In this document: positions 14,680 to 57,317 of the stretch, one piece after another | Numbering within the stretch: position 1 is the first letter of the stretch | Layout of the letters: the number at the start of each line of letters is the position of its first letter | Source: Muricea muricata | Taxonomy: Eukaryota; Cnidaria; Anthozoa; Malacalcyonacea; Plexauridae | Length of the DNA: 64,000 nt | Assembly: GCA_963855995.1 (NCBI GenBank) | Contig: OY979716.1 | Location: forward strand, 90,444,042-90,508,041 | Direction: 5' to 3' | Notes under the pieces: model-generated | The model's input: only the letters and a program-made list of their open reading frames with translations | What the model was told of the DNA's origin: nothing | Database searches by the model: none | Position numbers and translations under genes: made by a program

Positions 14680-17030
<2,351 letters not shown>

Positions 17031-23591: not shown

Positions 23592-24707
23592 ATAGGTTCA
23601 CCGTTTAAACTAAAATTCCAAACAACTGGAATATACAATGCAATATACTCATTAATAACATTTAAACTCAAAATTATGTCATAAGGGTAAAGCAGGCGGC
23701 TTGGAGAGTTTAAAGTGGCGATTTTTTGATTCACGCATCAAACCACACTGGACCAAATCCACGTATACCTAATTAATCACATAACGGCCACGCACGTCTG
23801 GTGAAAATTCAACACATCTGACCAGGCAACATGCGTGACTGATTTTGTTCCAGCATCTTCCTCAAGCTTTCTTCCTAAAGCTTTACCTTGCGTATTAAAT
23901 GTTTAATCTCGTTGGCGTGAAATGGCCTTATTTTATTCTTCTACTGTATATGAATAAGAACTAAATCTACTGTAGTTGCGTATATTTTGGCTACTTTTAA
24001 ATAAGAAACACAAAGCTTTTCGTCTCCATGCAAAAGCCATGACCAATACAACTTCTAATATCCTGGTATAAAACAAATAGATATTTTTTTGTTGAATTGC
24101 AAAGGTGCGCCGCACACCCTAGAGGATGTGTTGACGAAGAGTAAGGCTTTTAATTTTATACGTCATGTTCATGTTTAACGAGCGAAGCTTACATAAGTAT
24201 AAACAGGGTATGATATTTATAAAATTACCTTGAAATTCTACTCCGTTTTTCGACTGTATCTTTTTGTACTGTAAAATATTATTTCCTTTTAAAAAGGCAA
24301 AAATTTTTCCTCACTGTATATGGATAAAAAACAGCTGTAGTGAGCCTGAACATAGAAAACTAAACAAGCAGGTGCACTGTGCTTTTTGTAACACCTCGAA
24401 TCCGCTGCAACTCTCAAATGTCCAATAAAAAGGCGAGTATATAGCGCCCCGGCATTGTAATGAAGAAACAGTTTATGCACCAGTCATACATTTAAAATCC
24501 ACAATCCTGTAGCTTCATTGGAACAGACTGGGAGACATGCTTCTTTCATGTTTCTAAGCGTGCTTGTATAATGACATGTCAGTCAAACTACCTTTCAAAA
24601 AGTCAGGAATATATATATATATATCAGGAAATCTTCAGGTCTACCACCTGAAGATTCCCTTTGGATGAAACAGACTGTAGTGGTAAGTTTTTGAGGTATT
24701 TTTGCAC

Positions 24708-24710
<3 letters not shown>

Positions 24711-24803
<93 letters not shown>
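24711..24803. repeat. (TA)n microsatellite
   Basis: About 46 perfect TA units inside the 1.6-kb tandem unit, just after a short (TA) run and a hairpin around AATCTTCAGGT/ACCTGAAGATT. Confidence 0.95.
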
Positions 24804-24805
<2 letters not shown>

Positions 24806-27756
24806 TCTTCATTATGTATTCTTAGTGGGAGGAAGACACCAGATCTTGTTACTGGCGGTATTTTAGTTTATCACAGTTCACTTTTGTTGATATCTTAATT
24901 ACTGCACTACCTGCACTGACGCGTTAGTTCGAGATATCAGAACAAAACGGAGGTCTGACCTAAAGGCTCTAATATTTGGTGATAGAACACGGACCTATAT
25001 CTTTTGGCAATTTTCTCATAAGAATACTATGGGCAAAATTTCCTTTTAGCAGTCACTTACCTTGTAAGCCACTGAAATTAAACACTAAACATGCTGCTAT
25101 ATACATTAGTGCTCTTCTCACGTTAAAATATTCTGATTCAATAAAATTAATACATATGGTTATAGGTTCACCGCTTAAACTAAAACTCCAACAACTGGTC
25201 CGGAGTTTGCAATATTCTCATTAATGAGATTTAAACTCATTATTATGTCGCCAGGGTAAAGCGGACGGTTTGGAGAGTTCTAGGTTGCGATATTTTGATT
25301 CACGCATCAACCCACACCAGACAAAGATCCACGTACTTAATTAATCACATAGCAGTCATGCACGTCTGGAGAAAATTCTACACATCTTACTGGGCAACAT
25401 GCATGACTGATTTTGTTCTAGCATGTTTGTTTACCTTCCGCAAGCTTTCCTTTTCCTGTTAAAAGATTATCTCGCGCGCGTATTAAATGTTTAAATTTGT
25501 TTGCTGCAATGGCCTTATTTTATTCTTATATTGTGCATGAATAAGATCTAAATCTATTTGCGTACTTTTTGCTACTTTTAAATAGGAAACACAAAGCTCT
25601 TCGTCTCCATGCAAAAGCCATGACCAATAAAACTTCCAATATCCAGGCATAAAACAAATAGATATTTTTTTGCTGAGCTGCAAAGGCGCGCCACAAACTC
25701 TAGAGGATGTGTTGACGAAGACTAAGGCTTTTAGTTTTATACGTCATGTTCATATTTAACGAGCGAAGCTTACAAGTATATGCAGGATAAGATATTTATA
25801 AAATTACCTTGGAATCCTACTCTGCTTTTTGACTGAATTTTTTTATACTGTAAAATATTATTTCCTTTTAAGGAGGCAAAATTTTTCCTCACTGTATATG
25901 GATAAAAAACAGCTGTAGTGAGCCTGAACATAGAAAACTAAACAAGCAGGTGCATTATGCTTTTTGTGACACCTCTAATCCGCTGCAACTCTCAAATATC
26001 CAATAAAAATGCGAATTTATGGCGCCCCTGCATTGTAATAAAGGAACAGTTTATGCACCAGTCATACATTTAAAATCCACAATCCTGTAGCTTCATTGGA
26101 ACAGACTGGGAGACATGTTTGTTTCTATGTTTCTAAGCGTGCTTGCACAATTATATGTCAGTCAGACTGCCTTTCTTACTGCCGACGGAGCGTCGTGCGG
26201 GATAAATACATAAAACACGAAACAACGAATGAGCTCTCTCATGCTCATCAAACTGCACCATTTTTTGTGTCAAAACCATGCTCTTCTTTATGTATTCTTA
26301 GCGGAAAGAAGACACCAGATCGTGTTATTGGCAGCATTTTAGTTTGTCACAGTTCACTTTTGTTGATGTCTGAATTGCTGATTCACTATTACTACCGACG
26401 GAGCGGCACAAAACGTTGATTTTTACCTTGCCGTTAGAGGCGGTGAAGGAGCCCATACCTTTCGTGTACTAATAATTACTGCACTACATGCACTGACGCG
26501 TTAGTTCGAGACATCAGAACAAAACGAAGGGTTTATCTGAAGGTTGTTTTAGGAACTTCAAATTAATATTTGGTGATAAAACGCGGACCTATATCCTTTA
26601 GAGATTTTCTTATAACAACACTATGGGAAAAATTTCCTTTTAACAGTCACTTATCTTGTAAACCACTAAAATTGAGCACTAAATATGCTGCTATATACAT
26701 TAGTGCTCTTCTAACATTGAAATATCCTGATTCAATAAAATTGATACACATGGTTATAGGTTCACCGTTTAAACTAAAATTCCAACAACTGGAATATACA
26801 ATGCGATGTACTCATTCATAACATTTAAACTCAAAATTATGTCGCAAGGGTAAAACAGGCGGCTTGGAGAGCTCTAAGTGGCGATTTTTTTACTCACGCA
26901 TAACACCACATTGGACCAACCCACGTATACCTAATTAATCACATATCGGCCACCCACATCTGGTGAAAATTCAACACATCTTACCAGGCAACATGCGTGA
27001 CTGATTTTGCTCTAGCATGCAGGTTTATCTTCCTCAAGCTTTCTTTTTTCTGCTAAAGTTTTACCGTGCGTATTAAATGTTTAATTTTGTTGGCGTGAAA
27101 TGGCCTTATTTTATTCTTCTAATGTATATGAATAAGAACTAAACCTACTGTAGTTGCGTACATTTTGGCTACTTTTAAATAAGAAACACAAAGCTCTTCG
27201 TCTCCATGCAAAAGCCATGACCAATACAACTTCTAATATCCAGGTATAAAACAAATAGATATTTTTTGTTGAATTGCAAAGGTGCGCCGCACACCCTAGA
27301 GGATGTGTTGACGAAAACTAAGGCTTTTAGTTTTATACGTCATGTTCATGTTTAACGAGCGAAGCTTACATGAGTATAAACAGGATATGATATTTATGAA
27401 ATTACCTTGGAATGCTACTCTGTTTTTCGATCGTATCTTTTTATACTGTAAAATATTATTTCCTTTTAAAAAGGCAAAAATTTTTCCTCACTGTTTTGGG
27501 ATAAAAAACAGCTGTATTGAGCCTGAACATAGAAAACTAAACAAGCAGGTGCATTATGGCATGTCCAATAAAAATGCGAATTTATAGCGCCCCTGCATTG
27601 TAATAAAGGCTTAGTTTATGCGCAAGTCGTACATTTAAAATCCACAATCCTGTAGCTTCATTGGAACAGACTGGGAGACATGCTTTTTTTTCTATGTTTC
27701 TAAGCGTGCTTGTATAATGACATGTCAGTCAAACTACCTTTTTAAAAGTCAGGAAT

Positions 27757-28196
<440 letters not shown>

Positions 28197-30249
28197 CGAA
28201 ACAACAAATGAGGTCGCTGATGCTCATCAAACTGAACCATTTTTTTTCAAAATGATGCTCTTCATTATGTATTCTTCGTGGAAGGAAGACACCAGATCTT
28301 GTTACTGGCGGTATTTTACTTTATCACAGTTCACTTTTGTTGATATCTGAATTACTGCACTACCTGCACTGACGCGTCAGTTCGAGATATCAGAAAAAAA
28401 CGGAGGTTTTATCTAAAGGTTCTAATATTTGGTGATAAAACGCGGACCTTTATCTTTTAGCAATTTTCTCATAAGAACACTATGGGCAAAATTTCCTTTT
28501 AGACAAAAAACACTGAAATTAAACACTAAATATGCTGCTATATACATTGGTGTTCTTCTCATGCACTTTAAAATATCCTGATTCAATAAAATTAATACAT
28601 ATTTTTATAGGTTCACTGTTTAAACTAGAATTCCAACAACTGGTCCGGAGTTTGCAATATACTCATTAATAAGATTTGAACTCATAATTATGTCGCCAGG
28701 GTAAAGCAGGCGGTTTGGAGAGTCCTAGGTTGCGATTTTTTTATTCACGCATCAACCCACACCAGACAAACATCCACGTACTTAATTAATCACATAACAG
28801 TCATGCACGTCTGGCGAAAATTCTACACATCTTACTGGGCAACATGCGTGACTGATTTTGTTCTAGCATGCTTGTTTACCTTCCCCAAGCTTTCGTTTTC
28901 CTGTTAAAAGATTACCTCGCACGGTTAATAAAATGTTTAAATTTGTTTGCTGCAATGGCCATATTTTATTCTTATGCTGTGTATGAATAAGATCTAAATC
29001 TATTTGCGTACTTTTTGCTACTTTTAAATAAGAAACACAAAGCTCTTCGTCTCCATGCAAAAGCCATGACAAATACAACTTCCAATATCCAGGCATAAAA
29101 CAAATAGATATTTTATGTTGAAATGCAAAGACGCGCCGCAAACTCCACAGGATGTGTTGACGAGGTATGATATTCTGTAAATAAGGTATGATATTCATAA
29201 AATTACCTTGGAATGCTACTCTGTTTTTCGACTGTATATTTATATACTGTTAAATATTATTTCCTTTTAAGAAGGCAAAATTTTTCTTCGCTGTATATGG
29301 ATAAAAACAGCTGTATTGAGCTATAAAATAGAAAACTAAACAAGCAGGTGCATTATGTTTTTTGTTACCGTATAAAATGATGACGTATAAAAACTATATA
29401 CATTAGTGCTCTTCTAACTTTGAAATATATCCCGTTTCAATGAGATTAATAGCTACATATGGCTATACGTTGATCGTCTAAACTAACTTCCAACAACTAG
29501 CCCAGAGTTTGCAATAGACTCATTAATAACATTTAAACTTAGAATTATTTCGCCAGAGTAGAGCGGGCGGCTTGGAGAATTCCAGGTTGCGATTTTTTGG
29601 TTCACGCATCGAACCACGATGTACAAAAGTCCACGTACTTAATTAATAACATAACAGGCATGCATTCACGCCCGGTGAAATTTCAACACACCTTACTAGG
29701 CAACATGCACGACTGATTTTGCTCTAGCATGCCGGTTTACCTTCCTCAAGCTTTCCTTTTCCTGTTAAAAATTTACCTCACGTTTTAAATGTTTAATTTT
29801 GTTGGCATGCTATGGCCTTGTTTTATTCTTCGACTGTATATGAATAATAACCAAAACTTTTTGCGTATTTTTTTGCCACCTTTAAACAAAAAACGTAAAG
29901 GTCTTCAAATCCATGCAAAAGCATACTTCTGAGAAATACAACTTCTAATATCCATGCATAAAAATTTTTAGATAATTTTTGTTAAACTGCAAACGCGCGC
30001 CGCAAACCCGACAGGATGGGTTGACAAAGCCGAAGGCTATTAGTTTTATACTCCCGTTTCATGTTTAACCAGCCGAAGCTTACATAAATACAAGCAGGAT
30101 ATAATATTTATAAAATTACCTTGGAATCCTGGCTGCTCAGTTTTTCCTGTATCTTTTTATACTGTTGGATATTATTTCCTTTTAAAATAGTAAAATATCT
30201 CCACGCTGTATATGGATAAAAGACAGCTGTACCAAGCCTGAATGTGACG

Positions 30250-36783: not shown

Positions 36784-36889
36784 GACGATATATGTAGCTG
36801 ATGAAATGCATGACTGCATGTTGGAGTAAAATAATGAATATTGTAATCCCGAGGAGTTTTTTTATTTTGGTCTTGGCGCTAAGGGTATA

Positions 36890-38085
36890 CGTTTTGGAAA
36901 TTGGAATATCAACCGCCTTACAATGGAGAAGTTCGACCAACTCAAATTGTTCTTGTGGAATCGGAGTCGACCGCAGGTTGACGTCTTCGCACTAAATGAG
37001 ACGTTCCTGAAACCAGAAGTACCTGACAGTTTGTACTTTATACCTGGGTTTACGTTATATCGGCGAGACAGAGTAGGAAGTAGAAAAGGGGGAGGTGTGA
37101 TGGTTTATGTGAATGATGAACTGAATTTTAAAAGACGAACTGACTTGGAAAATTCAGAGTTGGGAGTAATTTGGTTAGAAGTGTGCCCTTATAAATCTAA
37201 GCGTCCTATACTATTTGGAACCATATATCGTCCTCCTTCGTACAATAAAGACATGAATTTAAAATTACAACGAAACTTGGAAGCTGTCTACCCATTAAAT
37301 AAAGAAACTATCCTGATCGGTGACTTTAACTTGCATTATTTCAAAACAGCCTCCAAGAGAAATATCCTTATGAAAGCATTATCAGGTATGGAATTTAAGC
37401 AGCTAATAAACCGTGTAACACGGCCTATTAGCGGAACTTGTTTGGATCACATCTTTTCAAATCGTCCCGAGAGAATAACAAATGTGAAAACCTTTGAATC
37501 TGGCTTAGCCGACCACTTTCCAGTCCTTGCAGTCCGTTTGTATAAAGCAAAATTCTGTTCCCGCTTGAAAAACAAACTCGTCACTATAAATTATCGAAGC
37601 ATGAAATTTTTCGATGCAAATAGGTTTGTTGAAACCCTTGGAAGTTTACCGTGGGAAACGATTTTTATCTTTGAAGACGTTGAGGACATGTTGAGTGCTT
37701 GGGAAACATTATTTAATCAGGCACTTGACGCTCATTGTCCATGGAGAGAAAAGCGGGTATCGCGGGAGAAGCAAACGCCTTGTATGACAAAAGCAATAAT
37801 CGAAAGGTTGAGATTACGAGACATGCTATTGAAAATTGCTAGACGTTCAAATGCGAAGGCCGATTGGGACTCGTATAAGTTAGCTAGGAACAAATGTGTG
37901 AACATTATTAAACATGAAAAACGTGCTTTCTATAGCAATTGCTTTGAAGAGAACAAAGGAAATTCAAAGGCGATGTGGAAAACAATCAAATCACTAATGA
38001 GTACAAAGAAGTCGGATGTTTGTATGAATTTGGGTGATCATTCAAACGAGCATGAAGCGGAGACGTTTAATGATTATTTCACTTC
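36890..38085 (+). CDS. APE-type endonuclease domain of LINE 1
   Basis: Apparent catalytic positions are all present: WNINRL (Asn), FALNETFL (Glu), GTIYRPP (Tyr-Arg-Pro), LIGDFNLHY (Asp/Asn), CLDHIFSNRPE and SGLADHFPVLA (Asp-His). The domain makes the target nick that primes reverse transcription. An in-frame Met at 36923 starts a 403-codon frame. A basic linker follows (MLLKIARRSNAKADWDSYKL), and the frame is then diverted at 38103 by the duplicated RT block. Confidence 0.85.
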
Positions 38086-38102
38086 AATTGATGCCTCAGC
38101 AA

Positions 38103-38801
38103 GGCCCCCTATTATTCATAATTTACATCAATGACCTCCCTTTACATGTTCTAACGGATGATGTTGACCTTGACCTATATGTTGATGATACCACTATAAT
38201 GACTGCTGCCCCTATTTATTCTATTCAAACTGATCTAGAAAATACGTTAAAGCGAACCTGGCAGGATGTTGAAACTTGGGCAAATGCAAACAAGCTACCG
38301 TTGAATCAATCAAAAACGAAAACTCTTTTGATAACCGGAAAGCGTTTAGCGAAAAAAATTTCAAGCGAAGATACGAAGTTATTCGTTGTCACAAATGAGG
38401 GCATTACTCTGGAACAAGTTGAGACGGCAAAACTCCTAGGACTTGAATTGGACAGTGAACTGTCGTTTTCTTCTCACGTTGATAAGTTATGTCTGAAATT
38501 AGCACAAAGAATAGGCGTTTTAGATAAGATCAAATCATGCCTTCCTGTGAAACAGAGAATCTTATATTATAACGCCTTGATTCGATCATTAATGAGTTAC
38601 GTCAGCGTAGTATGGCATACGTGTAGTAATCAGGATCTGGGGAAAGTCTTACTTTTGCAGGAACGGGTAGGGAGAGTGATCTTGGATGCCAAACCCAGAA
38701 CATCTTCTGTGACATTATTCAATGAACTCGGTTGGATACCATTTTATGAAGAGGCAAAGATTTCTAAGTGTTGTATATTGTATAGACGTATAAAAAATAA
38801 T
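38103..38801 (+). repeat. Duplicated RT block inserted in LINE 1 (copy A)
   Basis: This 699-bp segment is nearly identical to 39524-40256 downstream in the same element, including the catalytic LYVDDTTIMTAAP region. It lies between the endonuclease linker (ending at FTSI) and the true start of the RT (DISKTLILVN onward, 38802). Copy A lacks an insertion of about 31 bp and a 3-bp insertion present in the downstream copy, so copy A keeps the older, open frame here. Confidence 0.9.
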
Positions 38802-38811
38802 ACAGATATTA

Positions 38812-40517
38812 GTAAGACTTTGATATTAGTAAATTAAAAAGTTTTGTCTCCTCGAGAAAGCCCGGCGCCGTAAATTTTTGTATTCCTCCTATTGATGAAA
38901 GCTTTATATTACAGAATCTACATTCCATGAAATGCTCTAAAGCTGCTGGGTTTGATAAGATTAGTGCGAGAATGTTGAAGATAGCTGCACCAGTTATTGT
39001 TCCTTCTTTAGCTAAACTAATGAACATTTCTATAAGCTCAACAGTGTTCCCCCAACGGTGGAAAACAGCAAAAGTTACCCCCATCTATAAATCTGGAGAT
39101 CGTACGGACCCAAGTAATTATCGTCCGATATCGGTTCTCCCAGCACTGTCGAAGATACTTGAACGACATGTACATGTAAATCTTTACAACTATTTTATCC
39201 AAAACAAACTGCTCTATTCTCAGCAGTCTAAGTTCAGGAAATATCATAATACAGAGACAGCGCTTTTAAGGATTGTAGACCAGCTGCTTCGAAACCTAGA
39301 TAAAAACCATGTTAGTGGTCTTCTGTTAATTGATTATTGTAAGGCTTTTGACATGGTAGATCACGAAATCCTGATGCTTAAATTGGGGGCGTATGGCTTA
39401 AGTGCATCTGCCAGTCGATGGTTTGCTTCGTACTTAGAAGGGAGACGACAGGGTGTATCAATTGATGGTAAAGTTTCCAACTGGCTAGATGTTCCGCATG
39501 GTGTCCCACAGGGGAGCATTCTTGGCCCCCTATTATTCATAATTTACATCAATGACCTCCCTTTACATGTTCTAACGGATGATGTTGACCTTGACCTATA
39601 TGTTGATGATACCACTATAATGACTGCTGCCCCTATTTATTCTATTCAAACTGATCTAGAAAATACGTTAAAGCGAACCTGGCAGGATGTTGAAACTTGG
39701 GCAAATGCAAACAAGCTACCGTTCAATCAATCAAAAACGAAAACTCTTTTGATAACCGGAAAGCGTTTAGCGAAAAAAAATTTATTTGTTATATTTAAAT
39801 ATATGTAAGAAAGTTATATATGTAAAAAAGTTATTCGTTGTCACAAATGAGGGCATTACTCTGGAACAAGTTGAGACGGCAAAACTCCTAGGACTTGAAT
39901 TGGACAGTGAACTGTCGTTTTCTTCTCACGTTGATAAGTTATGTCTGAAATTAGCACAAAGAATAGGCGTTTTAGATAAGATCAAATCATGCCTTCCTGT
40001 GAAACAGAGAATCTTATATTATAACGCCTTGATTCGATCATTAATGAGTTACGTCAGCGTAGTATGGCATACGTGTAGTAATCATGAGGATCTGGGGAAA
40101 GTCTTACTTTTGCAGGAACGGGTAGGGAGAGTGATCTTGGATGCCAAACCCAGAACATCTTCTGTGACATTATTCAATGAACTCGGTTGGATACCATTTT
40201 ATGAAGAGGCAAAGATTTCTAAGTGTTGTATATTGTATAGACGTATAAAAAATAATGTTCCGGATTATTTAATTAACACTTTGACACTAAATAGCCAGTT
40301 TCACTCGAGAGAAAATCGGTATTCTAATCTGAACTATATTTGTCCAAAGTACAATCGTGTGACCGAAGGAGGAAGAACGTTTAATGTAACGGCTGTGAAA
40401 CTATGGAATAGCTTGAGTATTGATTTAAGAAAAAAACCAAATCTTTACTCGTTTAAAGATGCAATGTTTAAGGAAACTCTTGAGAATCAGAAATTTATCC
40501 CACATTTTAACTTTTAG
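38812..40517 (+). pseudogene. Reverse transcriptase of LINE 1
   Basis: From 38812 the frame gives CSKAAGFDKISARMLKIAA (38936), RPISVLPALSKILERHVHV, LLIDYCKAFDMVDHEIL, VPQGSILGPLLFIIYINDL and the catalytic DLYVDDTTIM, i.e. F/YVDD rather than YADD. At about 39776 a small AT-rich insertion shifts the frame; the thumb and C-terminus continue from 39826 (FVVTNEGITLEQVETAKLLG) to a stop at 40517. One frameshift separates it from an intact RT. Confidence 0.85.
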
Positions 40518-45505: not shown

Positions 45506-45714
45506 TGTAATGAATGAAAGGTCTTATATTTTAAAGAAATAAATGCCTTTATATAAACAAATAGAAAATAAAAACTCTCTTTACATATTGCAATCACAAG
45601 CTACAACGTGTTCTTTTTTCTTTTTCTCTCACGCATGTGCGCTTCGTATCCTCATCTGTACCTCACTGTATATCTGTATCTATGTGCATATGCAAGTATC
45701 CATTGTTTACTACA
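45506..45714 (-). repeat. 3' LTR of gypsy element
   Basis: Bounded by TGTAATGAATG and TTTACTACA on the plus strand and near-identical to 57110-57317. The preceding purine-rich tract on the minus strand (AGATAGGAGGAT, 45726-45715) fits a polypurine tract. Confidence 0.9.
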
Positions 45715-45845
45715 ATCCTCCTATCTTTAGAAACCGAAGTCTAAAAGCTAGACAACATTACAGTCTAATATCAATAAATGTCCTCTGTATAACTGTTTGC
45801 ACTCTGTAATCTCGTTAAACAACTAAGTAAGACTATCTAATACTG

Positions 45846-46403
45846 TCAAGTGTTATTGAATCCGTAGTACTCAGGTTTTTTCCAATTTCTAGTCGGAAAT
45901 CTAGTGTGGTTGGTATTACTTGTGGGTGCTGCTAAACGGTCTTGTTCCATACGTTCACCAACTACAGTTTCTGACGGTGGTACATTTTCTTGTTCTTGCA
46001 AGGGGCCGTGACGAGTCTGAGGATCTGGTAACGATTGTTCTGTGGACTCACGAACCACGTCATCAGCAACTGTCGGCTGAATTTTCGGAACTGGTGGAAA
46101 GCTTTTAAAGAATGACGAATTTCGTGTGACAGTTCGATTATCAGTTGTCCTTTGTGCAGTTATCATTGAACCCTTGATTCTTGTCACATGATATGGTATG
46201 GGTTCAAACGGTGTGGATAACTTATTCCTTTTTTCCTGTCGAACCAACACTGTCTCACCCATCATAAATTTTCTTGATTTAGTACGGCGCCTTGTATCTG
46301 CATATTTCTTCTCCTTTTCCTTTACAGTTTTGTCTCGAACACGTAGTTGTACGTCTTCCTCAGGATGTAATTCTCCAGATACCTTTGGCAATTTGGTGTC
46401 CAT
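45846..46403 (-). CDS. Gypsy integrase C-terminal region
   Basis: The frame continues from the integrase catalytic domain (HATTGRSPFELIFGRPMDTK) into a basic region with GETVLVRQEKRNKLSTPFEP and YHVTRIKGSMITAQ, the usual small beta-barrel after gypsy integrase. A hydrophilic tail follows, ending at 45846. No env-like ORF lies between it and the LTR. Confidence 0.8.
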   Translation of the reverse strand: MDTKLPKVSGELHPEEDVQLRVRDKTVKEKEKKYADTRRRTKSRKFMMGETVLVRQEKRNKLSTPFEPIPYHVTRIKGSMITAQRTTDNRTVTRNSSFFKSFPPVPKIQPTVADDVVRESTEQSLPDPQTRHGPLQEQENVPPSETVVGERMEQDRLAAPTSNTNHTRFPTRNWKKPEYYGFNNT

Positions 46404-46537
46404 TGGTCTTCCGAAGATTAGCTCAAACGGACTTCTTCCAGTAGTGGCGTGCGGTGTAGATCTATAAACTCTTAGAAAATTGTGTATTTCTCTTTTCCAA
46501 TTCTTTCCTTCTGCTACAAACGTGTCTACTGCCTTCT

Positions 46538-48083
46538 TCAGTGTCCGTACAAATCGCTCTGCTTGACCACTCGCTTCCGGATGTAATGGAGTAATTTTTC
46601 GATGTCTAAAGCCAACACATATTCTTTAAATTCTTCTCCTTGAAACGGTGGACCATTGTCACTTTTAATTTCTTCCGGAATACCAAATAACGAAAATATC
46701 TTATCAAGCTTCGAAATAGTAGCAGATGCTGAGGTTGATGTGAGAAATTTCACGACTGGATATCTTGAATAATCGTCAACTACGACAAAACAGTATGTCC
46801 CACACGGGAAGGGACCACAGAAATCAATAGATAATTTCTGCCATGCTCTATCCGGTAACTCAGTCATAACTAGTGGTTCACGATGTTTTGCACTTGTCGC
46901 AGCCTGACAAGGAATACAACCCTTCACTTCTTCTTCAATAGCTTTGTCTAGACCACTGAACCATACTCTAGGTCTGAGATACTGTTTACACCTAACAGTA
47001 CCTTGGTGCCCTTCATGCCCAAGCTTTACGATCCTTTTTTGCAAAGACTTCGGAATCACAATTTTTTTTCCTTTTAAAACAATTCCATCAACGACTGAAA
47101 ACTCGTTCATTACTTTCTTATAACGAGCCATCTTGGGATCATTGTACAGTTCATTCATTTTTCCAGTTTCCACCGCGAGTTTGATCTTTTGCAACTCTTC
47201 GTCTAAACTGGTAGCTTTGTTTACATCTTCTAAGCTTATTGCATCAGGCATACATTCAGTCACGATCAAATTTACTTCTGCTTCTGCTTTTTTACTCTGA
47301 ATTACATCTTCGGAAGCACATTTCAGTGGATGTCTGGATGCGTAATCGCTAGGATTTGTCTCTCCTGGTCTGCGTACGACAGTAAAATCATAACTTTGCA
47401 AGAAGAGTACCCATCGTTCAATTCTAATAGGTGATTTGCTGGATTTTTTATTGAAAATTCCTAGCAATGGTTTATGATCCGTTATAACAGTAAATGCAGC
47501 ACCTGCAAGGTACGAATGCAGCCTTTCGCATGCCCATCATATAGCCAATGCTTCTCTTTCTGTTTGTGAGTACCTTGATTCCACCGATGTAAGGGCTCTA
47601 CTTATGTATGTAACAACTATAAAACACTCACTGTCCTTTTCTTTTTGAGCAAGTATAGCTCCTAGACCAGATGGACTTCCATCAACAATTACCTCTGTCT
47701 CTCTGCCAATCTCGTAATATGTCATGACCGTATCCGATGATAATGCTGACTTCAGCTTTTCAAATGCATTCTGCTCTGTCTGTGTCCATCGCCATGGTGT
47801 ATCTTGTTTTGTAAGTGCTCTTAAAGGAGCAACTATTGAAGCAAAGTTGTTGATAAATCGAGAAGAATAGTTAGCCATAACCAATAACGAACGGAGTTCA
47901 TTAACATTTTGTGGCGTAGGCATGTTGTTCAGATAATCCACTTTCTCAGGATCAGGTTTTAAACCGTCTGCACTGAACACGAAACCAAAGAACTTTACAG
48001 ATGACTGATGAAACAAACATTTCTTTTTGTTCAACGTTAATCCTGCATCCTTATCCTCTCTAACACTTGTCTCAAATTCTTAT
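46538..48083 (-). pseudogene. Gypsy RT thumb, RNase H and integrase core
   Basis: Directly after the nested element the minus strand resumes NKNLRQVLER, then after a one-base frameshift AGLTLNKKKCLFHQSSVKFF (47537-48034). RNase H follows: TEVIVDGSPSGLGAILAQKE, SRALTSVESRYSQTEREALA, a stop near 47537, then VITDHKPLLGIF. Integrase has an HHCC-like segment (GHEGHQGTVRCKQYL, CIPCQAATSAKH) and the core Asp residues in SIDFCGPFPCGTYCFVVVDD and IKSDNGPPFQGEEF. A frameshift near 46600 precedes ASGQAERFVRTLKKAV with the catalytic Glu. Confidence 0.85.
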
Positions 48084-48089
48084 TACACT

Positions 48090-48540
48090 CTAAAAAAAGG
48101 TGTGTTAATTTAACACACATTTTTGTCCAAATATTCACACACCTTAAGTTGGGTTTTAGAACACACCTTAAGGTGTGTTTAACATACCTTAAGTTGGGTT
48201 TTAGAACACACCTTAAGGTGTGTTTAACACACGTTAAGGTGTGTTAAACACACCTTAAGGTGTGTTCTAAAACCCAACTTAAGGTGTGTTTTCAGCTTGT
48301 CCAAATTTTAACACACCTTAAGGTGGGTTTTGTCCAAAGGTGTGTTTTCTAACACACCTTGGTGCATTTTCTAACACACCCTGATGGGTTTTCTAACACA
48401 CCTTGGTGGGTTTTCTAACACACCTTGGTGGGTTTTGTTACACACCTAAAACTGTGCCTTACATCGCACCTTAATAGAAGGTGTGTAATATAACACACCA
48501 ATAGGTATGCTCTTTTACACACCTTTTGAAAAGGACAAAA
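48090..48540. repeat. Left subterminal palindrome array
   Basis: More than a dozen copies of AACACACC or GGTGTGTT occur, many joined as the 20-bp palindrome AACACACCTTAAGGTGTGTT near 48160-48270, others as spaced half-sites with GTTTTCTAACACACCTTGGT-like spacing further in. Such dense sites near an end fit binding by an element-encoded protein. Confidence 0.85.
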
Positions 48541-48812
48541 TAAGTCGAGTTTTACCTTAGAAAAAAACACACCATATAATTATATAAATACAGGCAGAAG
48601 AATTTGTTGAGAATGTATAATTGTACTGTTACTTCGTTAATGACACTTTTAAATGCTATAAGATATAAGATTAAGCACTCTCCAAATATATTAATACCTA
48701 ACCTGGAAGGGAATCAATAATACTTTAAATAAATTTAAAGTGGAATGTGTTTCTACTTATACTTTAAAAAATGTCTGCTAGTAAAGAATTGTAATGGTAG
48801 TGTTAATAATAG

Positions 48813-51800
48813 TTACTTTTTAGCAGCTGCAGACACTCTGCTTCTCACTTCAGTCATTAGTGCGGAATACTTCGTGCCTTTATATGCGTTTTCACACGAT
48901 TGTAACACAATCTCCTGGAGGAAAGATAAGGCCACAATCATACCATCTGGATACGTCACATCAAACACATAATATGCACATATCAGGTCTATTAGCCCAC
49001 TGATGAGACTTTTGCAAAGCTGACAATCAACAAAAACTTTGTTTTCTCCAACGACCATCAGCTGCTGTATATCTTCCGGACACCCAATACACAGCAACTT
49101 AAATTGTACCATTTTATCTTTCACCATACTGTCCATTGTCGATGAGGGCTAAATAAAAAGAAAATTGAGACTGTACAGTGGATATAAGTACGAATAATGA
49201 CCTAAATTCAATAACATGTTCCAGGTCAAACCTTAACATGTTATTTCATTCACCGTAACACAGTGAAATACAATAGAAAAAGCTTTTTTCTGCTGGCAAG
49301 AGATTGCTAATGCTAAATTAATTATGGGATAATCTCTACCTAATTTATCCAAATAACTAATTGTATTCACAAGTCATGATTGTAGTGCATCCATGTGAAC
49401 CAGGGAGGCTAAATTGCATAAAATTAACAAAAAGTATTAAAACTTACATCTTTGAATTTTAGCAAATTTGTTAACCGCTTCTTTCCATTTTTGCTTTCGA
49501 CAATGGATAATGCATCAACGATATCCTTAGATGACAATTCACCATCCTTCACCAACAATGATTTACAGCCAGCAGTCAGTCTTTGTTCCGCCCCTTTTAA
49601 GGTGCCTTTACCCAAAATACGATTCAATTCATTTCTCAGCTAGATGTAAAAAGCAGTAAAAATAATGAGATAATATAATGCAAAAAATTGTTATTTCAAA
49701 CTCTCAGTTCCCGTAATAGCAGCTGTAAAAAATGAAACTATAGTCCTTCAGGCAGCAATGCGATCTACAGTCCTGCAAAAAAGTCCAGTTGTCAAGCTTG
49801 GAATATGAGATACAGGGCATTCAAAACATTCATGTTGTGAAAATTAGACTTGTTGATAAACAACTTGCATCAAGCCTGTGGATAAAAAGTCTTGACAGTC
49901 AACTTGCTATAAAAGCCAATACATATCATGTCACTCACATGTTCTTGTTTGTCAAGATATGGACACATCTCCAACACCTCTGCCGATGATCCTGCTGTCT
50001 TGGTGACAAAGGTTCGTCGTTCAGCAAATGTTTCTTTGTTGAGGCTTACATAGGTTTTTTTCGACATTGTACCAGCTCGAGCATTTTTCAGCAACTCTAG
50101 ATTTCTTTTCTGTGCCTCTGGGATTTCATTGAAAAGCTTAACTCTTTTACACGAGTATACTTTGCTAGAATCAGGACTTCCTGATGCTTCACACTTGGGT
50201 CTACTCTTCCGTCTTGCATTTCTAAAAAACTGGCTTAGTTGCTTCTGCAGTGAAAGCTTAAAAAACAAAATTAAAGAATAGTTGTTAAACCTGTTTAACC
50301 CAGTTTGTGTTGTCAGTGACTATTTCTTTCACTGTGTCACCTGATATGACTATTATTTTCCCTGATAAGTTTCTAAAATAAACACTGGCATCAGTCATAC
50401 AACCTTTCATCAAATGGTGACATTGCAACCACCACCCCTAAAGTTAATAATAAGTTAGATGAATACAATCTTAAAGTGAGAAAAACTTACCAAATAATTT
50501 GAAGGAGTAGAGTCTCTCAATTCAGGAAACTTCTTGCAAACAAGAAGTGCAATGCGTTTATAATCGCCTTGTTGAGGATGGCTGGTCAGTCCCAAATAAA
50601 ATGAACCAATATCATTAACAAGGTGCCGTCGCACAGACAACACAGACCCATTGTCAATTGCCTGTTGAACGACAACAGAAAAGTTGCAGGGAAAAGGTAA
50701 AGGGTCAGGTAGAGGAGAATTGCCATATTTTCGTTTGCCATTGTCTGAACTTAATGGCTCCAATTCTTCTGATTTGACATGATTCACAGGTGGGCTAGGT
50801 TTTTCATCATCATTCATTTCTGCTAAAGGTTTGCTACTAGCAGCACTATTCTTGGTGCTAGTTGGGGTTGATGTAGACACAGTGTGGTTAACTATAATGA
50901 TATCTTCATCACAGATGTTGCCAGTCTGTAACATATAAATTAATATGTTTACTTAGATGTTAGTATGAAATCCCTAGTTTTCCCCACAAAAAGATCGACC
51001 CAGTAACTCCTTGTCAAAAGTCATGCGATTTATCTTGGTGCTCTGACAAGCTGGGATACCCAACATTTATAAGATAGTAATTTATCACAATATTGCTGTA
51101 AGGATAAAATGGTCTAGGCTAAGTATGTAATAGTAATTTCAATGGCAAGGCATGTCTAGAAAGGCTACCACGGATACTTAAGCCTGGTTTCCATATGGTC
51201 GTAAACATGTCGTAACTGTCGTAGAGATAGACTCTTTCTCTATCTATACGACATTTGCAACACAGTTACGACACATTCACGACCATATGGAAACCAGGCT
51301 TTAGCTATACACATAAGCAACTTTAGGGAAGTCCTTACAAGGACCCACTTCCCCATTGAAAAATTCAAAACAGGCAATCTTTTTGATAATGTGAATACCA
51401 ATCACACTGTGAAGAATGTTTTTAATAGCTTGCTTTTCATTTAACCAATTGCATTCCTGCAAGTCATTATTTAGTTAGTGCTCATGAAGTTCACAGGAAA
51501 AAGCATATCATACATTGAAAATTTCCTAGAGCACCCATATAGATCACTGTTTTTGTAGGTACACAGTGACATAAACTTAAATTTTAATGTTTAAATTTTA
51601 TTGCGATATATATCTAATACTACAATGGGCTTATGTTAGTAGAATAAATGAAATACGTATAGTTTTCTTTATATAATTACTTTATGACACACTAAGATAT
51701 AAGAGAAAACTTACCGAGCCTTGCTCGTCTTTGTTCTGAGTGGTATTGTCTGTCGAATCTGCATTTGATGAAATGGCCGAAGCCCCATCGCTTTCTTTAG

Positions 51801-52084
51801 CTTGGTTTACAACTTTTTTTATCTTCAATCGATGTCCTGATTTAGACAAGACGGTCTTAAACTCATCTATGTCATTTGTAAGACCCATTAACGTCGAGCC
51901 GTCAATTTCATTCTCTGTTCATAAACAAGGTAGATCGTATTATTATAAAAGCGTCGGCCATTTTAACACCAAAGCATTCAATTATTAAGTGATTATTAAT
52001 CATTTACTTACCCTCCAATAAAGCACAGATCTCCCACGAGACATCATTTGCCTTCAAAAATTGTATAAGGTCACTGCTGCTCAT
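48813..52084 (-). CDS. SAM-domain protein of the CACT element, six exons, 517 aa
   Basis: Coding exons: 52012-52084, 51715-51914, 50491-50925, 49939-50256, 49448-49639 and 48813-49148. Each intron has a canonical donor (GTAAGT four times, GTGAGT once) and an AG acceptor. The lengths sum to 1554 nt, 518 codons with the stop, and the frame is open throughout. Residues 1-70 form a SAM domain (SSSDLIQFLKANDVSWEICA, EIDGSTLMGLTNDIDEFK, KSGHRLKIKKV), a protein interaction module. A Ser/Asn-rich linker follows, then SVVVQQAIDNGSVLSVRRHL, GDYKRIALLVCKKFPELRDS and QLSQFFRNARRKSRPK, a conserved block typical of SAM proteins repeated in fish and invertebrate genomes. The C-terminal third has no named domain. 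Intron 2 holds a MITE. Function in the element is unknown. Confidence 0.85.
51181..51300. mobile_element. 120-bp PIF/Harbinger-type palindromic MITE
   Basis: AGCCTGGTTTCCATATGGTC and its reverse complement form both ends, with imperfect inner pairing. TTA flanks both sides (51178-51180 and 51301-51303), a TWA-type 3-bp duplication. It lies in the intron between SAM-gene exons 2 and 3, so splicing should remove it. Confidence 0.85.
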
Positions 52085-52433
52085 CTTTAACAAATTCATA
52101 TTAGAATATTTTAATAACAAAAATCCAGCTACAAACAGTTTTGCTATAAAAGTAAGAAAACCACAAGTGCGCACAGCGTATTCTCTGTGAAAAAATTTGT
52201 TTTTAGCAGTGTCACCTAGCACGTTGCTCATTGGTCAGGACGCGTCACGTGTATATAAGAGCCATACCTAGATGAACTAAAACAACCTGTGCTATCCATT
52301 CTTGTCCACAGATCATTGGTTTATCCTGCGTTCAGGCGGTAAATTTTAGCGGGCAAATGATATAACTCAGTGATAAAAACATGGCGAATTTTATACCTCG
52401 AAAGTGATGGTCTTAACATATTTATTGTAAATT
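52085..52433. promoter_or_regulatory. Divergent promoter region of the element
   Basis: About 350 bp separate the start codons of the SAM gene (52084, minus) and the zinc-finger gene (52434, plus). It includes GTCACGTGTATATAAGAGC near 52245, with a CACGTG E-box and TATATAA 13 bp apart, oriented for the plus-strand gene. No AACACACC sites were seen here. Confidence 0.5.
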
Positions 52434-54714
52434 ATGGAAGATTGTGGTGAATTGACCTGTGATTTTTGTAATTTTGTTTGCCGTGAGGGGGAAAGTGACC
52501 TTTTCTTTAAACATCTAATAAAATTTCATTCGAACGAACCGAATTTCATCGTTTACTGTGCTAGTTGTCCTCGATCGTTTCGGAAGGTCAACAGCCTTCA
52601 GAAACATTATTACAGGGAGCACAAGAATGTCGAACAGGAAATAATTTGGGGCGAAGGTGCTTATAGAGAACATGAACCGGGAACCGAGGACACGTATGAC
52701 CATGATGTAGCCCAGAAAGAATTCCAACACCATGTTGCCAAATTTCTTCTTAGTGCAAGGGAACAGGCAAAGTTAACCCAGACAGCATTAAATATGGTGA
52801 AAGACTCGACGAAGAACTTACTATCAGAGTACTTCGATATTGTCAAGAAATACTCTCTGCTAAGCTAACTGAATCTATGGGCGAAGAATTCGAACTTACC
52901 CGTGACATGGATGAATTGTTTTCTGCTGAACGAATCTTTGAAGGGTTGGATTCAGAGTATGAACAGAGAACTTATTATATGGAGAATTTTAACCTGGTTC
53001 TAAGTTTTATAGCTTTATTCTGCATATTTTAACCTTATCTCATGTTCTTTTAGTCTCTTAGGGTCTGTACGTTTGCTAAGTGTGGCTAAATAGTGCCTGC
53101 CTGTATAGATCACCCTTTGCACATGAGGCCAGAGGCCACATTTGGCATCTGAAAGACAAATATATACTGTATAGGTTTTCAAATAGTTTAAATTTTGATA
53201 TATTGTTGACTTATGAGCTATTGACCCTTACTTTGCTGTTTTTAAGCCGCATAGGCATTTTATGCTTCCATATCTATTGTTATTGTGGGGCATGCAATTG
53301 TGGACATTGTGATGTATCAGTATATGGATGCTCTTAAGATTGTATAAAATGCATATCATTCACAGGTTTGGGCCTCCTAGAAATGTTTGGACTATCCGAT
53401 TTGAGGCCTAGCACACGTTCTTCAAAAGAGCAGTGTCCAAGAATTTCAAGAACATCCCAAAGTCACTTGCATTTAGACATCAACGGTATGTTTGCTTCAT
53501 ACAAAAACTGATGAATCTGATTCATTGTGTATAATTATTCATAAAATTTTTAATTGTTTTGCAGAACTATGTGCTGGAATCTTCTAAAGCCACCTGCAAA
53601 GAATACTGGGTATCTTTATCGTGGTGACACTATTGGACCAAGTGTTTCAAAATAAATAACTTGATAGCCTGTTTCTTGTGTTTCAATAGAATGCATGTGG
53701 CCATGTTGATCATGCATTTTTCAGTATTGAGTAGAAATGGTGTGGTAATAACATTATTCTGTCCTATGCACTAGTTTAAGATAAATATAAATTATGGTAC
53801 ATTGTTAACATAGTTGATTTTGTTGTTTTAGGGAGTCATAATATTGATTTGCTGCACCACCCTGCTGCTCCTTTACCGTGCAATGCAGCTGGCTTACTTG
53901 AACTGCCTGAAAACTTTGTGGGAAGCAGGTATATATAACCATGATTAATTCTGATTTGAGTATACTGTGACACTATACTTGATCGAGTAACAGCATCCGC
54001 TATTAACTTGACAAGTAAAATCGTCTGATATTAGATAGAGCAAAATAATTTGGTGGCTTACATGAGAAAGTATTGCCAATGAAGAGGTGTATGTGAAGAC
54101 CTTAAAAGAAGTGTGTGACAGCACACTGTGGGACAGCACTTTTTTCCTAACAAGCATAATCATCTGGCAATATGCAGAGTAAAACAATCAATCATGTGAG
54201 AATTCCTTGCAAGTAAGCCTCTTCTCCCCAATATAAGTCCCCTCTCAGATTACTTTTCTATACTTTACTCTGTATGTGAAGTAATCATTCTCAGGTTCTA
54301 AAATGTTTAATGTATGCCCTGGGGATTGTATAGTAGAAAATGCCTTATAAAACCTTAAGCATTTTTAGTGTTAAATATGTTGAAATCCATGGCATACAGT
54401 ATCGCCTTAGGTGTGTGCTTCGGGTTGCCGACATGGATGACTTTGGTGAAAGGGACTATCCATCATATGGCAAGCCACAGGACATTCTTATATGGGAAGA
54501 TGAAAAATTTTTTGTTTTAATTTTGCTTAAAACAATTGAATTTAACCCACATCTGATGAGTTACAAAGTCTTGCCAACTGACCAGAAGACTGTGATATCC
54601 CCTCAAAGCCTACCTTGGCATGGTGTATTGAATATAATTGTAAAGAATGGAAACCTATTTGTTGTTGAGAAGGAGTCTGCTGCAACTGAGGACACTGAAC
54701 TATATAATGTTTAA
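52434..54714 (+). pseudogene. C2H2 zinc-finger protein of the CACT element, decayed
   Basis: Exon 1 (from 52434) encodes two C2H2-type fingers (CDFCNFVCREGESD..HLIKFH and CASCPRSFRKVNSLQKHYYR) and a helical region. After a frame change near 52846 it continues EILSAKLTESMGEEFELTRD and IFEGLDSEYEQR to a donor near 52996. Later exons by splice sites: 53366-53485 (NVWTIRFEA, TAG stop, HTFFKRAVSKNFKNIPKSL), 53566-53655, 53832-53928 and about 54295-54714 (KYVEIHGIQYRLRCVLRV to a stop). The RFEAKHTFFKR and IPKSLAFRHQ words mark a repeated animal family in which fingers precede a conserved C-terminal domain. One nonsense codon and one frameshift indicate loss, unless RNA processing repairs them. The function is unknown; a DNA-binding or transposition role is possible. 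Confidence 0.65.
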
Positions 54715-54844
54715 TGATGCGTGCATATTTATCATGCCTTGCAAAAACATTTCTCAAAGTTATAATTATAAATAATTCCTTCATAGTCTATATAAATATG
54801 TTATTAATATATCTTAGTAATAGTCAGTACACCAAGTTTAACAT

Positions 54845-55180
54845 ATGTAGGGTGTGTTTTCTGACACACCAAGGTGTGTTGTCTGTCACACCAAAGTGTG
54901 AGGTGCAAGATGTGTTTAACACACCAAGGTGTGTTTTTATTCAAAAGGTGGGTTTTTGAACACACCTATCTCTAGTCAAAGGTGTGCAAGGAAAGGTGTG
55001 TAAACTCTTGGTGTGTTTTCTAGCACACCAGGGTGTGTTTGGTAACACACCAAGGTGTGTTTTGTAAAGATGAATGAAAAGGTGTGTTAAATTTACACAT
55101 CTTGGTGTGTACTAAAACACACCTTTGTGTGTATTGAAACACACCATGGTGTGTAATCTAACACACCTGTTTTTAGAGTG
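54845..55180. repeat. Right subterminal palindrome array
   Basis: About fifteen AACACACC/GGTGTGTT half-sites, mostly as ACACACCAAGGTGTGTT, where the centre is AAGG or AGGG rather than the TTAAGG found in the left array. It starts about 130 bp after the stop codon of the zinc-finger gene. Confidence 0.85.
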
Positions 55181-57077
55181 TATGGTCGGCTGTGTCCTTT
55201 CCGAACACAATTATGTCATCGGAAATGTTTGCAGCTCCTGGTATGCCAGCAATTGTTTTTCGAATACAGTTGTCAAATTCTTCTTGTGCTGAAACAGTCC
55301 CATAATTCAGTCTCTTAAATCTGAATAGGCCTATATGAGTGCTAAAGGTTGTAAAATGTCTGGAGCTCGGATCTAGTTCAAGTTGATGATATGCTATATT
55401 TAAATCAAGCTTGGAGAAAATGGTCGCTCCATTTAGCTCGTGAATTATGTAATCAACAGTTGGGATCTCATATCTAACTCTCTCAATTCCCTTATTTGGT
55501 TCGTGCATATCTATACACATTCTGATTTCTCCGGATTGTTTGGGAACTATAACAACTGGTGACAACCATGTTGTTGGTTCATTTGCAGGCACTTCCTCAA
55601 TTACATCTGCATCTAATAATCTTTTAATCTCCGTCTTTAGTTTCTCTCGATAATGATAAGGGATACGCCTGTTCTTCTGGGCTACGGGTTTTACACTTGT
55701 ATTCTCAAGAAGTCTTGCTTGTGCATGCTTGTGTTTGCCAATTCCATGAAAAATAAAATCATACTCCTTTGTTATATCTTGAACTTCACTGTTAACACAA
55801 GTATCATTTTCATTTTTTGTGATTTCATTCACAATTTTGAGCACTCCTATGTCTATTGCAGTATCACAACCCAGTAATGGACTACTGTCTGTTTTGCCTT
55901 TCACAACAAGGAAAGAAGCCGGCAAATACTTCTCATTAACTTCTAGGACAGCATCAAAAGAACCAAGTACTGTTACAGTAATGGGTTGTTTACTGGCATA
56001 ACCAAACAGTTTTACTTTAGACTTTTTTAATTTCAATTTGGTCTTGGACCTTTCATTATTCAGTCTGAATCTTTCCTCGTCTATTAAATTGACACTGGAA
56101 CCGGAATCAACAGAAAACATGACTTTCACATCATTTAATTTAGTTTTCCCTATTGTTTTTTCTTGCACCTGTTTGACTGTTCCTTTGATGTGATTTATTT
56201 CATATTCTACACTTACTTGCTTTACATATTCACCATCAGATCCACTTCCATCAGATTCTTGCTCAACTTTATTTACACGAGACTTATCCTGTCTGCAGGG
56301 TCTTCTTTGAAACTGTCTTCTACTCTGTCTCTGTTTTGACAAATTACACATGGACTGCAAATTGTTTAACTTACCACAACCATGGCACGTCTTTCCCCAT
56401 GCTGGACAATTTCTAGCTGTATGTTTTCGACCACATCTGTTACAGTCAAAAATGTCTGAAGTGTTACTGTTTCTGTTAGGCCCACTTGTTCCAGGTGCCT
56501 GTGATGTCACCTTGTTTACATTACCACTATCCCCTGCAACAGCTTTCTCCATTTCTTTGGCTTGTCTCTTTGTGGTTTCATCAGCTATGCCGATACGAAT
56601 TATCTCATCATAGGATAACTCTTTCTCCAATGCTTTTTGTCTAACTTTTCTGTTACTGGTCTTCTGAATAATTTGCCTTTTAACTTCAGTATCCAAGTCA
56701 TCAAAGTTACAATGTTTCCCAATTTCTCTCAGTCTATTTACAAACGTGAGAAACGGCTCATGCTCATCTTGAACCACTTCTCTGAACTGATATATTAAGA
56801 AATCCACATTCTTTTTAGGTGCAAAATAGGCAGTTAACTTACTCTTGGCTTTCTTATAGTCGTTTCCGTTCTCTGGGTCTGGTAAGTTGTTATGTATTTT
56901 CCTCAATGCTTACCCGCCATATATCATCAGAGCAGCTTTCTTGTTTTAGGCGTCAGTAACTTTGAAGAATGTAAAGTTAAATTCCAAATTTTCAATCTAT
57001 TCTTCCCATCGCTCAGACACTGTTGTTGGGTAGCCATCGACCTGAAATTCCTTGCAATTTAAGTCCGGTACAGCCAT
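55173..57077 (-). pseudogene. Gypsy gag, protease and first part of RT
   Basis: Gag starts at 57077 (MAVPDLNCKEFQVDGYPTTV) but has stops near 57000, 56950 and 56912. The frame is then open from 56906 to the nested element. It holds two CCHC-like zinc knuckles (CNRCGRKHTARNC and CHGCGKLNNLQSMC, the second incomplete), a retropepsin active site VMFSVDSGSSVNLID, and RT motifs WLSPVVIVPKQSGEIRMCID, ATIFSKLDLNIAYHQLELD and NISDDIIVFGKD. ISDD replaces the usual YxDD. The frame is cut after KDTADH by the CACT-ended element at 55180. Confidence 0.9.
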
Positions 57078-57097
57078 TAGTTTTTTTATGATCCCAT

Positions 57098-57108
57098 CCT
57101 CGTCGCCA
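57098..57108 (-). promoter_or_regulatory. Primer binding site, probably tRNA-Ser
   Basis: One base after the 5' LTR the minus strand reads TGGCGACGAGG. TGG pairs with the tRNA CCA end, and the rest is complementary to an acceptor strand CCUCGUCG, as in animal tRNA-Ser(GCU) genes that start GACGAGG. The tRNA assignment is from memory of tRNA sequences. Confidence 0.65.
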
Positions 57109-57109
57109 T

Positions 57110-57317
57110 TGTAATGAATGAAAGGTCTTATATTTTAAAGAAATAAATGCCTTTGTATAAACAAATAGAAAATACAAACTCTCTTTACATATTACAATCA
57201 CAAGCTACAACGTGTTCTTTTTCTTTCTCCCTCACGCATGCGCGCTTCGTATCCTCATCTGTACCTCACTGTATATCTGTATCTATGTGCATATCGAAGT
57301 ATCCATTGTTTACTACA
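57110..57317 (-). repeat. 5' LTR of gypsy element
   Basis: Same termini as the 3' LTR. It directly precedes the primer binding site on the minus strand. Confidence 0.9.

Follow-up and report, generated by a model that had tools for sequence, protein, structure and literature searches.

A two-gene element in the cnidarian Muricea muricata read as an internally deleted copy of a DDE transposon

The stretch of DNA analysed here, which we call the window, comprises 64,000 nucleotides of contig OY979716.1 from Muricea muricata and contains an element of 7,095 bp (48086-55180) with CACTCTAAAAA at both ends and the dinucleotide TA on both sides. The element holds two divergent genes: on the minus strand a gene for a protein with a SAM-like domain (the SAM-side gene) and on the plus strand a gene for a protein with C2H2-like zinc fingers. 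We conclude that the element is a non-autonomous copy, shortened by an internal deletion, of a cut-and-paste transposon with two divergent genes, belonging to the CACTA/Mirage/Chapaev/Transib (CMCT) group; to the part of this reading that concerns the transposase and the deletion we assign a probability of roughly 0.92. The zinc-finger gene consists of the two ends of an Asp-Asp-Glu (DDE) transposase gene whose core has been deleted in the window copy, and in this copy it cannot encode a whole protein.

Relatives with a complete catalytic core

Four relatives with a complete core carry this conclusion, one on a foreign contig (L001) and three at loci of the same genome (L036, L051 and L052). 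L001 (QNXQ01000014.1, filed under an Aquifex metagenome-assembled genome) contains an uninterrupted frame of 831 residues and was the single match of a looser motif scan of bacterial and archaeal (GTDB) contigs. A first, stricter motif gave no match in the GTDB contigs, and motif scans of viral contigs matched two phage contigs, which we judged to be chance, and nothing else. The L001 contig is likely to represent contamination of a public genome bin by animal DNA. Two regions of the window gene align with the L001 protein in the same order, at 51% identity around the catalytic glutamate (the E region; E=5e-13, 60.8 bits) and at 34% identity at the C-terminus (E=5e-6, 38.1 bits), while the best of 200 shuffled queries used as a control reached 28.9 bits. 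About 400 residues of the L001 protein have no counterpart in the window. The assembly to which the window belongs (453 Mb) yielded at least 54 matches to the L001 protein (54 of 532 candidates were scored), several of them with open frames of 650-860 residues; the frames of L051 and L052 measure 840 and 726 residues.

The geometry of the core is closely similar among the relatives. With the catalytic residues placed by motif patterns, and the relatives also aligned, we observed in all four that the two aspartates (D1 and D2) lie 93-94 residues apart, that a C(2)C motif follows D2 by 20-21 residues, that an HxxxH motif begins 24 residues ahead of the glutamate, and that D2 and the glutamate are 251-264 residues apart. 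One of these cores can be placed within an element: among 20 fetched stretches tested, a match to the transposase at E<=1e-3 was given only by the overlapping L035 and L036, which contain a 16,026-bp CACTCTAAAAA element, with TA on both sides, in which a transposase frame of 695 residues is found. The same element holds an insertion of a long interspersed nuclear element (endonuclease and reverse transcriptase domains) and an exon that appears finger-like when read by eye, at which there is no Pfam C2H2 match.

An earlier note, made from the letters of this DNA, had described the element as lacking a recognisable transposase and as one of a class in which one of the two proteins, perhaps the zinc-finger protein, with a C-terminal domain acting as a new kind of nuclease, replaces the classical enzyme. 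The window copy taken by itself fits such a description, as no DDE core is recognisable in it and the C-terminal domain is conserved. However, the relatives hold a DDE core in the stretch lost from the window copy, which is the finding that the note itself had named as refuting its proposal. The C-terminal domain, moreover, looks BAH-like in a structure model of low confidence, an assignment that we regard as tentative, and no nuclease-type match appeared among the matches listed for it. We consider the note's explanation very improbable.

The segment missing from the window copy

The extent of the loss can be judged from a sister pair of genes at C1:21.95 Mb, whose N-terminal, E-region and C-terminal transposase exons are 56, 63 and 50% identical to those of the window (the window pieces were compared with the genome, and 100 of 227 candidates were scored). 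There, the N-terminal and E-region exons are separated by 2,980 bp, against about 340 bp in the window, and this gap (L054) contains exons with D1 (YYDDLELANPLGS), D2 (SGDTLAS), CRNC, QDIMH, HxxxH (HYLIH) and the RFE region. From this comparison, the window copy is best explained as a derivative that arose by internal deletion. A second, independent insertion of 2,531 bp at C1:83.69 Mb (L053), again with TA on both sides, consists of positions 1-1801 of the window element (98% identity) fused to positions 6404-7095 (92.5%), which places the ends of both genes within one element.

Ends, subterminal arrays and target sites

The left copy of the terminal repeat starts at 48086 and the complement of the right copy ends at 55180; with TA counted, the inverted arms are 29 nucleotides long and 90% complementary. 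Inside them, ACACACC/GGTGTGT is concentrated at the two ends of the element: the leftmost 515 bp contain 21 occurrences and the rightmost 350 bp contain 17, against one in the 6,230 bp between these and three in the 56,905 bp of the window outside the element. An Rfam search of the window gave no match. Termini of the form CACTCT..AGAGTG with TA on both sides are common to the window element, L053 and the L035/L036 element.

The raw count of CACTSTAAAAA (811 + 760) is lower than that of its reversed control (1385 + 1425) and is uninformative. The longer end of the window's family, CACTCTAAAAANAGGTGTGTT, occurs 67 + 69 times, against 0 + 0 for the reversed control. Among the first 100 listed family ends we found 35 neighbouring plus/minus pairs, each of which (35/35) joins one A-type end to one C-type end (Table 1). 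The length is 3.45-3.70 kb in 27 of these pairs; a single pair, of 16.4 kb, exceeds the window copy in length. SAM-side matches lie inside 13 of the 35 pairs and read without exception (19/19) towards the A-type end, 8 of these 19 being exons of the window and of L053 themselves. Other families with CACTSTAAAAA ends have different subterminal motifs (for example AATTGGT/AACCAAT, TAACCTA or TGGTTAA).

For target sites we considered 17 end pairs, chosen by eye among the first 100 of 1,571 listed CACTSTAAAAA places. Identical 2-bp flanks were present in 12 (TA 8, CA 2, TG 1, TT 1), and both CA-flanked cases (L025 and L026) belong to the window's own family. No identical 2-bp flank was seen in the other five, L012 (TA/AT), L014 (TG/TA), L016, L019 and L028, the last three having flanks that run on as longer inverted repeats; two further fetched stretches, L029 and L030, have right ends only. 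Given the CA, TG and TT flanks, TA is a preferred, not an obligatory, target in the examined pairs. As a separate observation, L016 (C1:4.79 Mb) and L019 (C1:7.96 Mb) are elements of 3,992 bp whose ends start CACTGTAAAAA and are themselves enclosed in a longer inverted repeat. L019 agrees with L016 in length and ends; L016 contains an unrelated frame of 695 residues, of another class.

The TA duplications of the window copy and of 8 of the 17 pairs could suggest that a Tc1/mariner-type transposase, with its strict TA target, moves the element, and that the two genes are captured cargo. Against this stand the identical non-TA flanks in 4 of the 12 pairs, among them both CA cases in the window's family, together with a resident transposase of CMCT type and CA..TG ends. 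Membership in Tc1/mariner was rejected on these grounds, and we find the cargo explanation scarcely credible.

The SAM-side gene and its pairing with the transposase gene

Joined at GT/AG borders, the six exons of the SAM-side gene give an open frame of 517 residues. The SAM_1 match of the encoded protein (E=0.065) is under the Pfam cut-off, so that the SAM label is plausible but not established; its best match in the PDB is an Sfmbt protein (E=0.026), and the final two exons weakly resemble the PWWP3A/B C-terminal family (E=0.002, under the cut-off). For the fingers of the transposase gene, the best Pfam match has E=0.0008 and all matches are under their cut-offs. Intron 2 of the SAM-side gene contains a 128-bp hairpin-like element (51177-51304; 43-nucleotide arms, 91% complementary), probably a miniature inverted-repeat transposable element inserted into the transposon.

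A comparison of the SAM-side protein with the genome yielded at least 83 matches (83 of 160 candidates were scored), which fall into 57 clusters, 12 of them multi-exon (two or more matches) and 45 single-exon; many of the matches are lone 3' exons. A transposase match lies within 15 kb of 7 of the 12 multi-exon clusters, and the two genes are divergent in 7 of 7, where uniform random placement would give a partner by chance to about 0.8% of clusters. The seven include the window, from which the query was taken, and L053, so that 5 of the 10 other clusters are partnered. Three of the 45 single-exon clusters have a partner, all of them divergent, and one of these shares the partner of a cluster already counted. 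The SAM-side gene thus stands beside a transposase gene at loci that have diverged from one another, at about 39-63% identity.

Could the SAM-side gene and the transposase gene belong to two transposons, nested or adjacent by chance? Both genes together are not demonstrable in the 16-kb element, and this, with the multi-exon clusters that have no detected partner, would fit such an explanation. However, in the window copy and in L053 a single pair of ends, flanked by TA duplications, encloses parts of both genes, every partnered multi-exon cluster is divergent, and among the first 100 listed family ends the pairing of A-type with C-type ends and the orientation of the SAM-side matches between them are uniform. 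We regard two separate transposons as a very remote prospect.

Much of the earlier note is thereby upheld. The bounded unit is confirmed, with its inverted ends, TA duplication, densely packed motifs near the ends and two spliced genes in divergent orientation, and the suggestion that both genes move together, divergently arranged, within one class of transposon is borne out by the partnered clusters and by the sister pair at C1:21.95 Mb. Its naming of a SAM-domain protein and a C2H2 protein holds in part, as both domains fall below the Pfam cut-offs and the zinc-finger gene is broken. The CACTSTAAAAA ends that it expected on the class are present; the TA duplications are found often but not exclusively, since other 2-bp duplications occur.

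Classification of the transposase

In all four complete-core relatives and in the exons of L054, the D-D-E series is accompanied by C(2)C and HxxxH, the combination found in the CMCT clade. The clade is characterized by 5'-CA..TG-3' termini and duplications of 2-5 bp (PMC12730594, in extract), and the window element, L053 and the L035/L036 element have such termini and duplications. A Foldseek search with a low-confidence model of the transposase returned 44 PDB matches at E<=1e-3, all of them RAG1, BbRAGL or HzTransib; an earlier model built from one sequence, with a predicted local distance difference test (pLDDT) score of 32, was unusable. DUF4218, a domain associated with EnSpm/CACTA transposases, has 16 matches in the genome, all above the curated cut-off, of which seven overlap transposase matches, eight lie within 3 kb of them and three have a Transposase_21 match within 3 kb; in single relatives it scores below the cut-off (L052, 2.7e-5; P0001, 0.044). 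From EnSpm/CACTA in the strict sense, defined by a CACTA core in the terminal inverted repeat (PMC1636069, in extract), the family departs in its ends, which read CACTC or CACTG.

We stress that several results weigh against the reading of the unit as a deleted two-gene CMCT transposon, or against parts of it. The transposase model has a mean pLDDT of 49 and superimposes on RAG1 with a root mean square deviation of at least 10 Å, and a sequence profile search matched no RAG1 chain. Transposase_21 (PF02992) reached E=0.0051 in the L036 frame, below the cut-off, and each of its 57 matches in the genome is more than 3 kb away from any P0001 match, which speaks against a classical TNP2. L051, compared with Transposase_21, Plavaka and DUF4218, matched none of them. 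A DNA search of the genome returned no intact-core copy of the window's family: it found the window and the L053 locus, and the other 17 of 19 matches were pieces of 39-46 bp. No partner was detected for 5 of the 12 multi-exon SAM-side clusters, and for the sister divergent pairs the observations cover the genes, with one A-type end adjoining the pair at 42.5 Mb. A candidate SAM-side exon in the 16,026-bp element was considered and dropped (E=0.07). Finally, the binding of DNA by either protein is something that we infer.

Comparison with known systems

Transib and ProtoRAG have CACT-type ends and 5-bp duplications, and ProtoRAG has a second gene. In the low-confidence model, the core of the transposase described here matches the structures of RAG1, BbRAGL and HzTransib; unlike in those systems, the duplications are of 2 bp, the partner is SAM-like and not of RAG2 type, and RAG1 was not found by sequence alone. 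The family resembles EnSpm/CACTA elements in its CA..TG ends, which start CACT, in the short duplications, in dense repeats near the ends that vary by family, in the occurrence of deletion derivatives, and in DUF4218, which is common to some Transposase_21 genes of the same genome. In an animal CACTA element, SmTRC1, 2-bp duplications were reported for 7 of 14 copies (PMC1636069). Unlike EnSpm/CACTA, the window's family has CACTC/CACTG ends, Transposase_21 is not recognised at the cut-off, and the transposase bears C2H2-like fingers and a putative BAH-like tail.

Maize En/Spm needs both a transposase, TNPD, and a protein that binds the subterminal repeats, TNPA, and among CACTA elements binder and repeats vary (PMC2613891, in extract). 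Two element proteins are likewise present here, encoded however by two divergent genes and not by one alternatively spliced unit, and the partner has a putative SAM-like domain. ESTA, a fungal EnSpm-like group, has TA duplications and a transposase of RAG1-like type in which C(2)C and H(3-4)H occur, but its families, as described in the extract, are fungal and carry TET/JBP genes (PMC12730594), whereas the present family resides in an animal genome with a SAM-side partner. From these comparisons, the enzyme is of a known kind and not categorically new. In the open-licence literature, judged by titles and the starts of abstracts, we found no SAM-like partner of such an element, nor, judged from listings, a BAH-like tail on a CACTA-type transposase; the letters RFEAKH did not occur in any of the papers listed for them.

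A proposed mechanism

We hypothesize that in an intact element a single divergent promoter region would drive both a transposase of C2H2-DDE-BAH-like build and its SAM-like partner. The transposase would recognise the ends by its fingers and core, cut, and insert at 2-bp targets with a preference for TA, while the BAH-like tail may read chromatin. The SAM-side protein would serve as an accessory, self-associating protein that bridges the subterminal motifs, in the manner of TNPA, the companion of TNPD in En/Spm; we give this role an even chance. Such a division of labour would be the simplest reading, because the arrays differ by family and the partner stays with the transposase across diverged loci. 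The arrays, however, could as well be bound by the transposase, through its fingers, as by the SAM-side protein. The window copy keeps its ends, its arrays and an open partner gene without a working transposase, and it can thus be moved at most in trans, if at all.

Alternatively, the SAM-side gene may be a passenger, or a gene for escape from silencing, that is dispensable for transposition. It is absent or unrecognisable in the 16-kb element that has a transposase frame, and its numerous matches as single 3' exons would also be in keeping with such a role. Yet the gene is open in the window copy although the transposase gene is broken, and it recurs divergently by the transposase at diverged loci, as would be expected of a co-adapted pair. 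We think this alternative unlikely, though well short of negligible.

More tentatively, and with odds somewhat against it, we propose that an animal RAG1-like CACTA lineage combines a transposase with a BAH-like tail and a divergent, self-assembling SAM-type partner that binds family-specific arrays, and that deletion copies in which just the partner gene is open, the window copy among them, could supply or titrate it in trans and so regulate the family.

The main reading, for its part, turns what looked like an element free of transposase into a definite lineage close to RAG1/Transib whose partner gene is identified. It would offer an animal counterpart in which to test the two-protein logic of En/Spm, along with a transposase that may bear a fused domain for reading chromatin. 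Zinc-finger and SAM-like proteins of this sort are repeated in fish and invertebrate genomes, and the main reading would explain such uncharacterised proteins as two halves of one mobile element.

Insertion site and other features of the window

The flanks of the element form one pol reading on the minus strand in Pfam, with RVT_1 in one flank (E=2.9e-6, slightly under the cut-off) and RT_RNaseH_2 (E=3.9e-22) and an integrase core (E=3.6e-13) in the opposite flank; from the order of the domains, we take the interrupted retroelement to be of gypsy type. When the flanks are joined over a single TA, the reading continues without a stop through the joint (FGKDTADHNKNLRQVLERI), consistent with a TA duplication; farther along, the joined pol frame meets a separate, unrelated break. 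Copies resembling long terminal repeats at 45506-45714 and 57110-57317, 95.7% identical, bracket this host retroelement (45506-57317), whose frames are on the minus strand.

Table 1. Positions in the window of the element's borders, arrays and exons
Feature	Position	Strand
Left target-site duplication TA	48084..48085	
Left terminal inverted repeat CACTCTAAAAA; A-type end AAAAAAAGG	48086..48096	+
Left subterminal array, ACACACC/GGTGTGT palindromes	48095..48574	
SAM-side exon 6, C-terminal domain; weak Pfam PWP3A-B_C match	48813..49148	-
SAM-side exon 5	49448..49639	-
SAM-side exon 4	49939..50256	-
SAM-side exon 3	50491..50925	-
SAM-side exon 2; second part of SAM-like domain, weak match	51715..51914	-
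SAM-side exon 1 with ATG; first part of SAM-like domain, weak match	52012..52084	-
Transposase N-terminal exon, first frame, two C2H2-like fingers	52434..52868	+
Remainder of transposase N-terminal exon in a different frame (frameshift in window copy)	52829..53008	+
Place of internal deletion, breakpoints approximate; about 3 kb with D-D-C2C-HxxxH exons here in the sister pair	53009..53351	+
Remnant of exon with last catalytic region (RFE), holding a stop	53352..53498	+
Transposase exon remnant	53560..53655	+
Transposase exon remnant	53828..53938	+
Transposase C-terminal exon, BAH-like domain (tentative)	54358..54711	+
Right subterminal array, GGTGTGT/ACACACC palindromes	54851..55168	
Right terminal inverted repeat; C-type end AAAAACAGG	55170..55180	-
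Right target-site duplication TA	55181..55182	

Elsewhere in the window, long simple repeats at 14750-15833 leave open frames of HRHR, SSSS and DDDD runs in several frames, and several kilobase-scale units at 20702-30242 recur in one orientation, about 75-86% identical to each other. Frames of a non-LTR (long terminal repeat) retrotransposon, with endonuclease and reverse transcriptase domains, lie at 36830-40517 and include an internal duplication of about 0.7 kb (94%).

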